Below, one piece after another: positions 51,824 through 57,943 of a stretch of DNA of 64,000 nt. The notes beneath the pieces are model-generated. The model was not told the DNA's origin, did not search any database, and saw nothing but the letters and a program-made list of their open reading frames with translations. A program made the position numbers and the translations under genes. The stretch covers positions 2,020,041-2,084,040 of the forward strand of contig KE159636.1 in assembly GCA_000403315.2 (NCBI GenBank). The letters are read 5' to 3'. Origin of the DNA: Lachnospiraceae bacterium A2. Its GTDB lineage: Bacteria; Bacillota; Clostridia; Lachnospirales; Lachnospiraceae. Every line of letters begins with the position of its first letter. The first letter of the stretch is position 1.

Positions 51824-51862
51824 TAATATGCAGGATGATGAAGCAGAGGAGTGCAGAAAGAA

Positions 51863-53980
51863 GTGAACAGTCAGCAAATCAGAAAATATGAAGGGATGGG
51901 ATTTGACAAGGGACAGATGGAGGAAATCCGGCAGGGGCTGGAAAAAGGCCTGGATGTGTCTTGGTACACGTCGGTAAATTATGACTGGTTCCAGATGGAG
52001 GAAATCAAAAAGGGCTTGGAGCACGGCCTTGATGTATCTGTGTACGCCAAGCCGGAAATTTCCTATGACCGGATGCGCCAAATCCGAAAAGCGTTAAAGG
52101 AAGGCCTTGACGTGTCAAGGCATCAGGAACTGGAAGCCGGGTACCTGCGCCAAATCCGTAAAGCGAAGCTGGGGCATGTAGACATTTTTTCCTATATTGA
52201 GGAAGGGTACGAGCCAGACCAATTAGAAGAAATCCGTTTAGGGTTAGAACACAAAGCAGATATTTCGAAATACCTGATAAAAGAATTTTTAGGGGAGTCC
52301 CTGCGGGAAATCCGTCTGGGCGTGGAAGAAGGGCTGGAGGTATCCGTATATGCCAAGATTTATTTTGGCTGGCAGCAGATGCGGGAAATCCGCCTGGGGC
52401 TGGAGCGGCGGGTGGATGTGTCCATCTACGCAAAGGAACTGTACCGCTGGCAGCAGATGCGGGAAATCCGCTTAGGGCTGCAAGAAGGGCTGGATGTGTC
52501 TGCCTACCAGAGCATGATGTATTCCGCCAAGGAAATGAAGCAGATACGCCAAAAGCTGCAGGAACAGGAGAAAAAGGCAGAAAATGCCGATATCCAGCTA
52601 GAAACATTGATGGAACAGGCGCGGCAGGCATCAGAATGCTTGGTGACCGTCAGCCAGGATAAGATGGAAGCCTATGTCACGCTGGAAAAAGGGACAACAA
52701 AGACAAAGAATGAAATCATGCGCCTTCTGGCGAAGGAGCATGTGGTATTTGGCATCCGACAGGATGAGATAGAGAAAAATTTAAAAGAAGCGGAGTTTGC
52801 CACCAGACGGTTTTTGGCTGCAGAAGGCATCCGGCCCGAACGGGGCAGGGATGGCTATTACGAGTTTTTCTTCCGCACGGGTATCCCCCAGATTCCCGCG
52901 ATCCGGAAAGACGGCTCGATTGACTACCAGAATACCGTATATTTTGAACAGGTAAAGGCTGGGCAGGTAATCGCTGTGTACCACGAAGCCCAGCCGGGGA
53001 TTGGCGGAAGGATGGTGGATGGCACGGAGCTGCCAGCCCATGGGGGGCAGGAAAAGTGCATCCTGAAAGGAAAAGGCTTCCTCCTTTCCCAGGACAGGAA
53101 GACCTATATTGCCCGGGAATCGGGCAAAATTGAACTGAAAGACAATAAAATTACCATACAGCCCCTCTTAGTGGTGAATGAAGTAACGATTTCCACCGGG
53201 AACCTGCGTTTTAACGGCAGCATCTGGATCCGGGGGAACGTAGGAAGCGGCGTCGTCATCCAATCCAAGGACGAGCTGATTATCGAAGGGAACGTGGAAT
53301 CTGCCCGTTTGCAGAGCGGAGGGCGGATTGTCATTAAAAACGGCGTTTCCGGCGGAGGGCTTGCCGTGATAGAAGCGGCAGGGGAAATCCATGGGAAATT
53401 CTTTGAAGGGGCGTCTTTGACAGCCAACGAGGGGATATATGCCAACTATGTGATGAACAGCAACATGATTGCAGGCAAGGAGATTGTCATTGCCGGCAGC
53501 AGGGGCGCCATAATCGGCGGGACTGCTGCGGCCGTCAATGGGGTTACAGCCCACCATATCGGGAACCGGGCTGGGCTGCCCACAATAATTTCCCTTGGCG
53601 TCAGCAAGGCCATGATAGAAAAAGAAGAAGAAGCGGAACTTAAGCTGAAAAAACTCCAGTCCGAACTGGCAATTTTTGAAGAAGCCTATAAAAAACTCCA
53701 GAAACAGTACCCGCCGGAAGTACGCAACGGGATGGACCTGTACCTGAAAGTGGAACAGGCAACCTATTTAAAGCGCAAGCAGATGGAGCTGCAGGTAGAA
53801 CGCACACGGGAACTGGAGGAAAAGCGGAGCAAGGCCAACGAGGCCAGGATGCTGGTTTACGGCATTTTAAATGCCGGTACTACCGTGCTGATGAACGGCA
53901 TGCAGTGGACAGCAGCCAATTCTGTCAGGAATGTCACCGTGCGCCTGTCCCACAGGGAAATCGGCGTATTTCGGAATTAA
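51863..53980 (+). CDS. FapA (DUF342) protein with N-terminal 26-residue repeats
   Basis: 705 residues in two parts. Residues 19-230 contain eight full and one partial tandem repeats, mostly 26 residues apart, of the type MREIRLGLEEGLDVSVYA...W. This is a helix-turn repeat also seen in other Clostridia proteins of unknown role. Residues ~250-700 are a FapA/DUF342 module: YYEFFFRTGIPQIPAIRKDG, a right-handed beta-helix (SIWIRGNVGSGVVIQSKDEL, IVIKNGVSGGG) and a coiled coil (about 600-660). DUF342 proteins form surface or cytoskeletal polymers and may influence division. GTG 51863 is taken as the start, 11 bases after GAGGAG; GTG 51851 overlaps that site. The adjacent receiver protein probably works with it. 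Confidence 0.85.
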   Translation: MNSQQIRKYEGMGFDKGQMEEIRQGLEKGLDVSWYTSVNYDWFQMEEIKKGLEHGLDVSVYAKPEISYDRMRQIRKALKEGLDVSRHQELEAGYLRQIRKAKLGHVDIFSYIEEGYEPDQLEEIRLGLEHKADISKYLIKEFLGESLREIRLGVEEGLEVSVYAKIYFGWQQMREIRLGLERRVDVSIYAKELYRWQQMREIRLGLQEGLDVSAYQSMMYSAKEMKQIRQKLQEQEKKAENADIQLETLMEQARQASECLVTVSQDKMEAYVTLEKGTTKTKNEIMRLLAKEHVVFGIRQDEIEKNLKEAEFATRRFLAAEGIRPERGRDGYYEFFFRTGIPQIPAIRKDGSIDYQNTVYFEQVKAGQVIAVYHEAQPGIGGRMVDGTELPAHGGQEKCILKGKGFLLSQDRKTYIARESGKIELKDNKITIQPLLVVNEVTISTGNLRFNGSIWIRGNVGSGVVIQSKDELIIEGNVESARLQSGGRIVIKNGVSGGGLAVIEAAGEIHGKFFEGASLTANEGIYANYVMNSNMIAGKEIVIAGSRGAIIGGTAAAVNGVTAHHIGNRAGLPTIISLGVSKAMIEKEEEAELKLKKLQSELAIFEEAYKKLQKQYPPEVRNGMDLYLKVEQATYLKRKQMELQVERTRELEEKRSKANEARMLVYGILNAGTTVLMNGMQWTAANSVRNVTVRLSHREIGVFRN

Positions 53981-55210: not shown

Positions 55211-56083
55211 GTGGGAAATATAGCATTAGTCACAGACAGCAACAGCGGGATCACCCAGGCAGAGGCAAAGGAATATGGGATCCATGTCCTGCCTATGCCA
55301 TTTTTTATCAATGGGGAAACTTATTTTGAAGACATAGATTTGTCACAGGAAGAATTTTATGAAAAATTAGAGGGGAATGCAGAAATCTCCACGTCCATGC
55401 CGGCAATCGGCTCCGTGACGGATTTGTGGGAACAGCTGCTGGAGGAATATGAAGGGATTGTCCATATCCCTATGTCCAGCGGCTTAAGCAGCTCCTGCGA
55501 AACGGCCATTATGCTGGCCCAGGAATATGAGGGCAGGGTGCAGGTGGTAAACAACCAGCGGATTTCCGTGACACAGAAGCAGGCGGTCCTGGACGCGGCA
55601 GAGTTGGCAAAGCGCGGGAAAAGCGCAGTGGAAATCAAGGAATTTCTGGAGGAAACAAAGTTTGATTCCAGCATTTATATTATGGTAGATACTTTAACAT
55701 ACCTGAAAAAGGGCGGCAGGATTACCCCTGCGGCGGCAGCCCTTGGCACATTGCTGAAATTAAAGCCCGTTCTGCAAATCCAGGGGGACAAGCTGGATGC
55801 CTTTGCCAAGGCAAGGACGGTAAAGCAAGCCAAAAACATTATGGTGGACGCCATGAAAAATGATTTTAAGAAACGCTTCGGGGATGAGGAGGGGAAAAAT
55901 ATGCACCTCTACATTGCCTATACCAAAGACCGTCAGGCTGCATTGGAATTTAAGGGGCAGGTACAGGAAGCCTTCCCCCATGCAGAAATTACCATGACAG
56001 ACCCCCTTTCCTTAAGCGTGGCATGCCATATCGGGCCGGGATCCTTAGCCATTGCCTGCGCAAAGAAGCTTCCCACGGCATAG
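55211..56083 (+). CDS. DegV family fatty-acid binding protein
   Basis: 290-residue DegV protein (FakB-like). ALVTDSNSGITQAEAKEYGI begins the domain, PMSSGLSSSCETA contacts the bound lipid carboxylate, and VDTLTYLKKGGRITPAAAAL is the conserved middle. FakB proteins present fatty acids to the kinase FakA; the fakA gene is not nearby, so this role is inferred. GTG 55211 follows GGAGGA and gives the family start. A bidirectional terminator follows. Confidence 0.93.
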   Translation: MGNIALVTDSNSGITQAEAKEYGIHVLPMPFFINGETYFEDIDLSQEEFYEKLEGNAEISTSMPAIGSVTDLWEQLLEEYEGIVHIPMSSGLSSSCETAIMLAQEYEGRVQVVNNQRISVTQKQAVLDAAELAKRGKSAVEIKEFLEETKFDSSIYIMVDTLTYLKKGGRITPAAAALGTLLKLKPVLQIQGDKLDAFAKARTVKQAKNIMVDAMKNDFKKRFGDEEGKNMHLYIAYTKDRQAALEFKGQVQEAFPHAEITMTDPLSLSVACHIGPGSLAIACAKKLPTA

Positions 56084-56113
56084 GGGGCTGCCGGAAAAGT
56101 TTATAAAACATAA

Positions 56114-56158
56114 AAAGGGGCTGCCGGAAAATGATACGGTTCCGTCAGCCTCTTTTTT
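56114..56158. terminator. Bidirectional terminator
   Basis: AAGGGGCTGCCGGAA pairs with TTCCGTCAGCCTCTT (two mismatches), with T-run on the right and A-run on the left. It serves degV from the left and the minus-strand gene from the right. Confidence 0.8.
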
Positions 56159-56169
56159 GTCCCTGAAAT

Positions 56170-57279
56170 TTAGGTCTGCTGGTGCAAAAATGCGATAATC
56201 CGGCAGTCCCTGCAGATTTCCAGATAGGCGTTGCCTTCTGTCTCCTCCAGCACAGTATCCCATTGGATTTGTGCAAGGTATTTCATAGGCTTCCCGCAGT
56301 CGGGGCATAGTTTAATTTCACAGTCCTGAATTCAGAACCCAAAACCGCCCACAGAGGATCCGCCTTCCCAATCGGCGGCGTACCGTGGCGGGACAGGGTC
56401 TTTCCCCAGGACGTAGCAGTTGGAGGCAAGCTCCTCAACCCATTGGTCTTCCGGGCCGTCTTCTGCCATGGAGCACCCTTCCCCGGGGAAATACCTGCTT
56501 TCGCCGTTTACTTCGTACCTGCAGAAAGTACTGTCTGAATAGATCAGGCAGTCCGGGCAGCATTTTGCCTTGGCAGTGCCGCTGATCCCCAGGAAAGAAA
56601 GACGTGGGTCGCTGCCGTCAATTTCCATCAGGTTTACAAGGGCGCAGCCGCAGGAAGGGCAGGTTTCCCCTGTCTTAACCCCTATTTTTACAGGGCTTTT
56701 CTTTTTTTCTTCCAAAGTCCCTTTTACCATGGGATAACATTCCTTAAAATTTGTTTCCAAATAATTGCCGTCCTTGTCGTAGGACCATCCGCCGTAAGTG
56801 GCGTGGACGGAGGGATTGGCGTACAGTTTTTCCCGCCACTTACGTGGATGCCGCTCCAGCTCCAGGAATGCTTGGAACACGTCTTCGCCCCCATGGACGG
56901 CAAGGCACAGCAGTAACTTTCCGGCAAGCATTGGGTCTGTACCATCCTCCATCACCATTTCCAGCATTTTGGCGGTGATATCATCAGGGGCGTCTTTATA
57001 TAGCTCGGAAGGATAGAAAAGCCCCTTTTGGAAGGCGGCTTTTGCCAGTTCCGTGGTATCGATGTCCCGGTAGCCCAGCAGGTTTTTAAATAAACCCCAG
57101 TGCTCCTCAAGATCGCCCGTTTCCATTATTTCCCTGCAGATGCTTTGGACTGCGGCGGCAAGCTCCTCCTTGGGCATTGCCAAGATCCGCTCCCTTTCGT
57201 TTTCGGTCTGGCAGGCAACGCAAATCCCGTCAAAAAAGATTTTCCTGCCGCATTGTTTGCAGTGCTGTATTTTTACCAT
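56170..57279 (-). pseudogene. Zinc-ribbon protein interrupted by an in-frame TGA
   Basis: The intact part (57279 down to 56332) is 315 residues: an N-terminal zinc ribbon (KIQHCKQCGRKIFFDGICVA CQ), a helical middle and a second zinc ribbon (CPSCGCALVN...CCPDC). The frame meets TGA at 56332-56334 and then stays open for 53 more codons reading IQDCEIKLCPDCGKPMKYLA and LEICRDCRIIAFLHQQT, a third zinc ribbon. In related proteins this position reads GGxPxW-IQDAEYPxCPxCG, so TGA stands where Trp (TGG) is expected. A point mutation is the simplest view; translational read-through is possible. ATG 57279 follows AAGGAGG, 13 bases after the TRIC gene. Function unknown. Confidence 0.75.
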
Positions 57280-57292
57280 AAATCCTACCTCC

Positions 57293-57943
57293 TTATCGTA
57301 TCCTCGGCAAGTTCCAACGGTAATGGGCTGCCAGCAGCCTTACCGCCACCACTGTGATGGAACTTACCAGCATCGCCCCAATATCCGGGACTGCCCTGCA
57401 CAGGAAAATATACAGGAACGCCCCAATCAGCGCCGCGCAGGCATAGACGTGCTTGATAAAGACAAAGGGCGTTTCCCCTGCCATCACATCCCGCATCATG
57501 CCCCCGCCAATCCCAGTAGCTACCCCTACAAAAACGAGGAGGAACCAATGGTCAAAATGGCTGCCTTCCAAATCCATGGCCGTACGGATGCCCATTACAG
57601 TAAAAATCCCAAGGCCCACCGCATCCAGCGCGCTCATTACCCGTTCGTACCGCTCTAAAAATGTGCTTTCCAAAAGCTCCTTTTTTATGAAGAATACCAC
57701 GAACAGCAGGCAGGAGGTCAGGATGGCAGTGCCCACATAGGCAAAATTTTGGAACATTTTCGGGGGATGGATGCCAAGGAGCAGGTCCCGGACACAGCCG
57801 CCTCCTACCGCAGTGGTAATGCCCAGCACATTGACGCCAAAGATATCCATGTTTTTCCGTATGCCCAGCATCGCCCCGGAAGAAGCAAAGGCAATGGTCC
57901 CAACGATTTCCAACAGGAAAATAAAAAGTTCTGAGTAAGGCAT
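57293..57943 (-). CDS. Trimeric intracellular cation channel (TRIC) family protein
   Basis: 216-residue membrane protein with seven predicted helices and the internal repeat of UPF0126/TRIC proteins. The paired motifs are GTIAFASSGAMLGIRKNMDI and GGGCVRDLLLG, then GLGIFTVMGIRTAM and GIGGGMMRDVMAGETPFVF. Bacterial homologues are K+-permeable channels or Gly transport candidates. ATG 57943 has AAAGGAG seven bases upstream. It is the first gene of a two-gene minus-strand unit. Confidence 0.9.
   Translation of the reverse strand: MPYSELFIFLLEIVGTIAFASSGAMLGIRKNMDIFGVNVLGITTAVGGGCVRDLLLGIHPPKMFQNFAYVGTAILTSCLLFVVFFIKKELLESTFLERYERVMSALDAVGLGIFTVMGIRTAMDLEGSHFDHWFLLVFVGVATGIGGGMMRDVMAGETPFVFIKHVYACAALIGAFLYIFLCRAVPDIGAMLVSSITVVAVRLLAAHYRWNLPRIR

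Follow-up and report, generated by a model that had tools for sequence, protein, structure and literature searches.

We identified an in-frame TGA that interrupts a conserved zinc-ribbon gene in Lachnospiraceae bacterium A2, and the best explanation, which we hold with good though not complete confidence, is a recent nonsense mutation in an accessory gene that seems dispensable: a very young and ordinary gene-breaking event. On the minus strand of the window (the whole stretch of DNA analyzed here, 64 kb long), the open reading frame 57279..56332 starts with the ATG at 57279 and encodes 315 aa up to a TGA at 56334-56332; past this TGA the frame remains open for 53 codons (56331-56173), until a TAA at 56172-56170, and the 53-codon extension encodes CPDCG...CRDC. 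All of this agrees with the preliminary description of the locus, which had pointed out the TGA, the open codons behind it, and the ribbon motif that they encode; it named no strand. The features of the locus are as follows.

56335..57279, minus strand: gene body, 315 codons (open reading frame; homologues; AF2 models of the homologue L004; structural match to YwqG, 1PV5), comprising an N-terminal zinc ribbon (CKQCG...CVAC), a HEAT-like helical region, repeat 1 of a YwqG-like domain (CPSCG...CCPDC), and the GG motif of repeat 2
56332..56334, minus strand: in-frame TGA, codon 316 (TGG in 15 of 16 intact homologues, TTT in one)
56173..56331, minus strand: orphaned tail, 53 codons (homology; dN on the window branch not above expectation), containing the second CxxC pair (CPDCG...CRDC), the conserved Gln of YLAQIQWD, and the C-terminal HQQT
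56170..56172, minus strand: natural TAA (from the sequence), following HQQT, at the usual gene end of the family
56107..56161, minus strand: terminator-like hairpin with a U run, just 3′ of the natural gene end (fold -22.7 kcal/mol, z -3.85)
57288..57294, minus strand: strong ribosome-binding site AAGGAGG (from the sequence), 8 bases before the ATG at 57279
57293..57943, minus strand: upstream same-strand neighbor, a UPF0126-type membrane protein (Pfam Gly_transporter, E 1.2e-42)
55211..56083, plus strand: convergent neighbor, a DegV family protein (neighbor annotation), its end facing the end of the zinc-ribbon gene

Only one lesion is visible in the gene: the body is open, and the Shine-Dalgarno sequence (overlapping the stop of the UPF0126-type gene that lies upstream), the ATG, the natural TAA, and the terminator-like hairpin are all present. 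The hairpin was missed by our hairpin scan, because its 10-base loop exceeds the limit of that scan. We rejected the openness of the frame behind the TGA as evidence, since 198 of the 1700 TGA triplets in the 64-kb window (any frame, both strands) are followed by at least 53 open codons; with such runs this common, it is homology rather than openness that is decisive.

We compared the gene to 16 intact full-length homologues (L003-L011, L092-L094, L096, L097, L110, and L111), of which L003 is from an uncultured Lachnospiraceae bacterium and the other 15 are from genome samples of the family, order, and class. The window's own gene (L001, L002, L013, and L095), repeats of genomes that were already counted (L091 and L098-L104), and decayed copies (L012, with L108 and L109; and L105) were handled apart from these, and the partial matches L106 (AGA at the column of codon 316), L107 (TTA at this column), and L112 were not counted as full-length. 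At the position of the TGA, every one of the 16 intact homologues carries a sense codon and continues through it to a conserved C-terminus: codon 316 is TGG in 15 and TTT in one (L111), and it is a stop in none, which upholds the earlier suggestion that the TGA stands exactly in the place of a TGG. We also looked for homologues that end at codon 316, and none of the 16 intact relatives does; frameshift damage was looked for as well, and a frameshift or deletion was seen in the two decayed copies, L012 and L105. The consensus that the preliminary description gave for related proteins (W-IQDAEY-x-CPxCG) mixes two subgroups of homologues: the motif at and after the Trp site is WIQDCx(I)xxCPDCG in the close relatives, and WVQD(A/W)EYxxCPxCG in a more distant group.

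The tail itself is well conserved. Along its full length of 53 residues it is 79-81% identical to the C-termini of the three closest relatives (E 1e-29 to 9e-29), whereas the body shares a lower identity (61-66%) with the same three proteins. Fourteen of the 16 homologues end in QQT (13 of them in HQQT), and L096 and L097 have slightly different ends. The four cysteines in the two CxxC motifs of the tail are retained in A2. No relaxed selection on the tail was detected when terminal-branch dN was compared for four sequences out of the 17 (window included), namely those of the window and the three relatives nearest to it: the ratio of tail dN to body dN is 0.44 on the window branch and 0.43, 0.85, and 0.25 on the branches of the three relatives, and the window branch has an excess tail dN of -0.003 (bootstrap 95% interval -0.058 to 0.058). 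Pairwise comparisons (ten sequences aligned, pairs computed among five) gave a tail dN of 0.118-0.140 between the window and the three relatives, and of 0.069-0.126 among those relatives. Synonymous change in the tail has reached saturation in comparisons of the window with its nearest relatives (pS 0.88-1.04), so a tail that had long gone without translation should have decayed; if this saturation is taken to mean at least one synonymous change per site, the unconstrained share of the window branch would be at most roughly 6%. Judged from the sequence alone, the stop is either very recent or followed by a tail that is still translated, and a young stop cannot be separated from a leaky one in this way, since read-through would also keep the tail conserved.

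The intact protein has about 369 amino acids and comprises a zinc ribbon at the N-terminus, a HEAT-like helical region, and a YwqG-like domain built of two repeats. In the AF2 model of L004, an intact homologue (mean pLDDT 84.3, pTM 0.81), the N-terminal zinc ribbon is followed by helices and then by a beta-rich C-terminal half; the C-terminal domain of L004 was also modeled alone (pLDDT 88.4, pTM 0.86). Among 383 chains aligned, this domain matched Bacillus subtilis YwqG (1PV5) with a Z of 8.1 and an rmsd of 3.9 (164 of 191 residues aligned), and the next match had a Z of 2.5; the whole L004 protein matched 1PV5 with a Z of 7.4 over 170 residues, tied with unrelated helical-repeat structures, and a structural Z near 8 can reflect a merely common arrangement. 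For the HEAT/ARM structural matches of the helical region, whose Z reaches 8.0, the same caution holds, as they possibly reflect just such an arrangement. 1PV5 was not among the best 50 Foldseek matches listed, an absence that we did not count against any fold. Within the C-terminal domain, Gln 159 and all eight CxxC cysteines are invariant in the 16 homologues; the GG motif is invariant too, with A or G in all 16 at the position of the P that is typical of GGxP.

YwqG belongs to the TYPP superfamily, which is described as having a GGxP-like motif and a conserved Gln, with CxxC pairs in a subset of its members, and for which a chaperone-like or protein-binding role was proposed (PMC4275035). 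The intact family resembles this superfamily in the 1PV5 fold match of L004, the GG motif, the conserved Gln, and the CxxC pairs, where Gln 159 is probably the conserved Gln of TYPP, judging from its place rather than from a superposition. In contrast, the P of GGxP is missing, and DUF1963 was not among the Pfam matches listed (one listing covering 25 of 53 families), which is why we name the protein YwqG-like instead of filing it under DUF1963. The zinc ribbon and the HEAT-like helices are additions here, and recall the helical domain and zinc finger described for TYPP family 2 (PMC4275035). Searches of NCBIfam, PHROGs, and PDB sequences returned only weak matches, mostly to zinc ribbons. Pfam and NCBIfam list only weak matches for the intact family, which seems to be a divergent YwqG-like protein that escapes the DUF1963 model of Pfam. 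A role in defense was considered and rejected: PADLOC gave only a weak match to a HEAT/ARM model (best E 0.00037, in 5 of 9 members) and a single match at chance level, neither of which is evidence for it.

In the second repeat, the stop comes four codons after the GG motif. It removes the last 54 residues, namely the Trp, the second CxxC pair, the conserved Gln, and the last three strands, and 9 of the 17 columns of the C-terminal domain that are invariant in the 16 homologues fall beyond it. The truncated protein would probably be inactive or unstable.

The zinc-ribbon gene is found in only one of 29 genomes of the genus, namely the source genome, and in 10 of 397 genomes of the family sample (counting the source genome and one decayed copy). 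Among 12 congener loci, five have the DegV gene immediately beside the UPF0126 gene and lack the zinc-ribbon gene in between; no DegV match was found within the stretch examined at the other seven. As a separate observation, the sequences that intervene between DegV and UPF0126 (the region corresponding to 55211-57943) vary among the congeners. Two decayed copies speak for the dispensability of the gene: L012 (genome G082) has an internal deletion, stops, and a frameshift; and of L105 (genome G289), a short piece of the N-terminus and the final 38 residues are all that is left. The gene is apparently rare, accessory, and dispensable, and a gene that is carried by few and lost by several would be an expected place for fresh nonsense mutations. 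Mobile carriage was not indicated: plasmid and phage records contained no match to the 315-aa body, and 48 stretches in viral contigs fitted the pattern, none of which was confirmed as a relative. Intact members of the family are thinly scattered over the family, order, and class samples searched.

We propose that a G-to-A transition turned TGG into TGA at codon 316 and would thereby have truncated this accessory gene, taking away the second-repeat CxxC motifs and the conserved Gln, so that the function is likely to have been lost or strongly weakened; a small amount of full-length protein might still arise through ordinary misreading of UGA by tRNA-Trp. The mutation is probably young. A fresh nonsense mutation was one of two possibilities offered in the preliminary description, and it is the one that our results favor: there is one lesion, no excess tail dN, a stop in none of the 16 intact relatives, and a gene that is rare and apparently dispensable. 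Against it, the TGA is known from one genome, and a single base of a single assembly could be an error. Belinky et al. (2021; PMC7918605) describe in-frame stops as widespread in bacterial genes and as persisting mostly for short times; they also argue that many such stops do not mark pseudogenes and keep dN/dS below 1, and suggest frequent read-through, an argument that, as far as it goes, counts against a recent nonsense mutation in A2. The A2 stop is similar to the stops described there in being a single stop in a conserved gene with purifying selection on both sides; it differs in that the focus of that study is on stops found in at least two species, whereas here the stop is found in one genome only (PMC7918605).

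A different decoding of TGA would also account for a TGA at a sense codon of the relatives, either as selenocysteine or as Trp via a reassigned or suppressor tRNA, and we give this next to no probability. The assembly (rated 93.45% complete) had no match to selA, in a search whose controls included an E. coli hit; the 17 matches to tRNA-Sec were all under the gathering score, several of them on ordinary tRNAs (150 of 304 candidates scored); and none of 57 tRNAs predicted by ARAGORN, in stretches that span all 60 Rfam tRNA matches, has a UCA anticodon. The ancestral residue, moreover, is Trp and not Cys. TGA is an ordinary stop in this genome: among 187 non-overlapping long ORFs in a 541-kb sample that includes the window, 102 end with TAA, 43 with TGA, and 42 with TAG. 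As far as the searched genome goes, selenocysteine, UGA-to-Trp reassignment, and a suppressor tRNA are thus refuted. In the same sample, 106 of 350 coding-like ORFs were followed by an in-frame stretch of at least 30 codons, but most of these stretches, judged by eye, look like separate neighboring genes or shadow frames, and no other convincing TGA-interrupted gene was found by eye in the 541 kb among stretches with a coding-like score above 0.05. An RNA element at the stop was also considered and rejected: the six Rfam matches obtained for 55900-57400 all lie far under their gathering scores and do not include SECIS, and the hairpin that overlaps the TGA is weak, with a z of -1.87 and equally good folds in 6 of 200 shuffles.

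The second possibility in the preliminary description was a read-through site that makes two forms, in which tRNA-Trp(CCA) inserts Trp at a leaky TGA and the 315-aa and 369-aa proteins arise in a useful ratio. It would explain why the tail is still constrained, and misreading at a former Trp codon would restore the ancestral residue. In the E. coli data reported in PMC11126739, UGA is the leakiest stop and is misread mostly as Trp; mean reporter read-through in minimal medium was 0.89% at 37°C, against 5.58% at 18°C, and values as high as 80% are given for certain positions under stress. The argument that read-through is frequent at in-frame stops of bacterial genes (PMC7918605) points in the same direction. 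Moreover, the single tRNA-Trp found in the A2 genome (anticodon CCA; L074:10264-10336, contig C1) has a five-pair anticodon stem topped by G.U, and opening this top pair in E. coli, by the C27A change in an overexpressed tRNA-Trp, is reported to raise UGA read-through about 2.5-fold (PMC13092985). The A2 gene resembles the system of PMC13092985 in having UGA at a Trp position and CCA in the only tRNA-Trp found; it differs in that the stem has five pairs, since G.U counts as a pair and the 4-bp stem described there is not formed, and in showing no signs of reassignment. The stop, furthermore, is common to none of the 16 intact relatives, so its position is not conserved across related species; no second convincing case stood out by eye in the 541-kb sample; the truncated form would be without the second-repeat CxxC motifs and the Gln; and the RNA structure at the stop is unremarkable. 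With no special tRNA or Sec machinery found, an unshared stop, and only a weak hairpin, the proposal of a two-form site found no positive support in our analysis, and we consider functional read-through quite improbable. We regard as very improbable, specifically, a leaky stop kept by selection, whose main product would be a 315-aa protein lacking the metal site of the second repeat, made together with a little 369-aa protein, and which the wobble-topped stem of tRNA-Trp(CCA) might help. Some full-length protein may nevertheless be made by background misreading of UGA by tRNA-Trp, in an unprogrammed way; this is plausible, given the misreading of UGA as Trp published for E. coli (PMC11126739). 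An error of sequencing or assembly, or a minority strain variant that entered the assembly while the species is otherwise intact, is unlikely. In its favor, only a single base departs, the rest of the gene, including the tail, looks functional, and the comparison rests on one genome per species; against it, the assembly is fairly good (10 contigs, the largest 3.2 Mb).

With a recent nonsense mutation as the preferred explanation, the A2 gene is a clean case of a bacterial gene apparently caught soon after its inactivation, and as it stands an ordinary instance of little significance. It calls for caution with the predicted 315-aa protein, which here is a truncated one, and the intact, divergent YwqG-like family is somewhat more interesting than the stop. 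If read-through were true instead, the case would gauge how natural leakiness of UGA buffers new nonsense mutations. Elsewhere in the window, a 709-aa ORF is found at 51851-53980, the N-terminal third of which is made of degenerate repeats of the type QMREIRLGLExGLDVSxYA.
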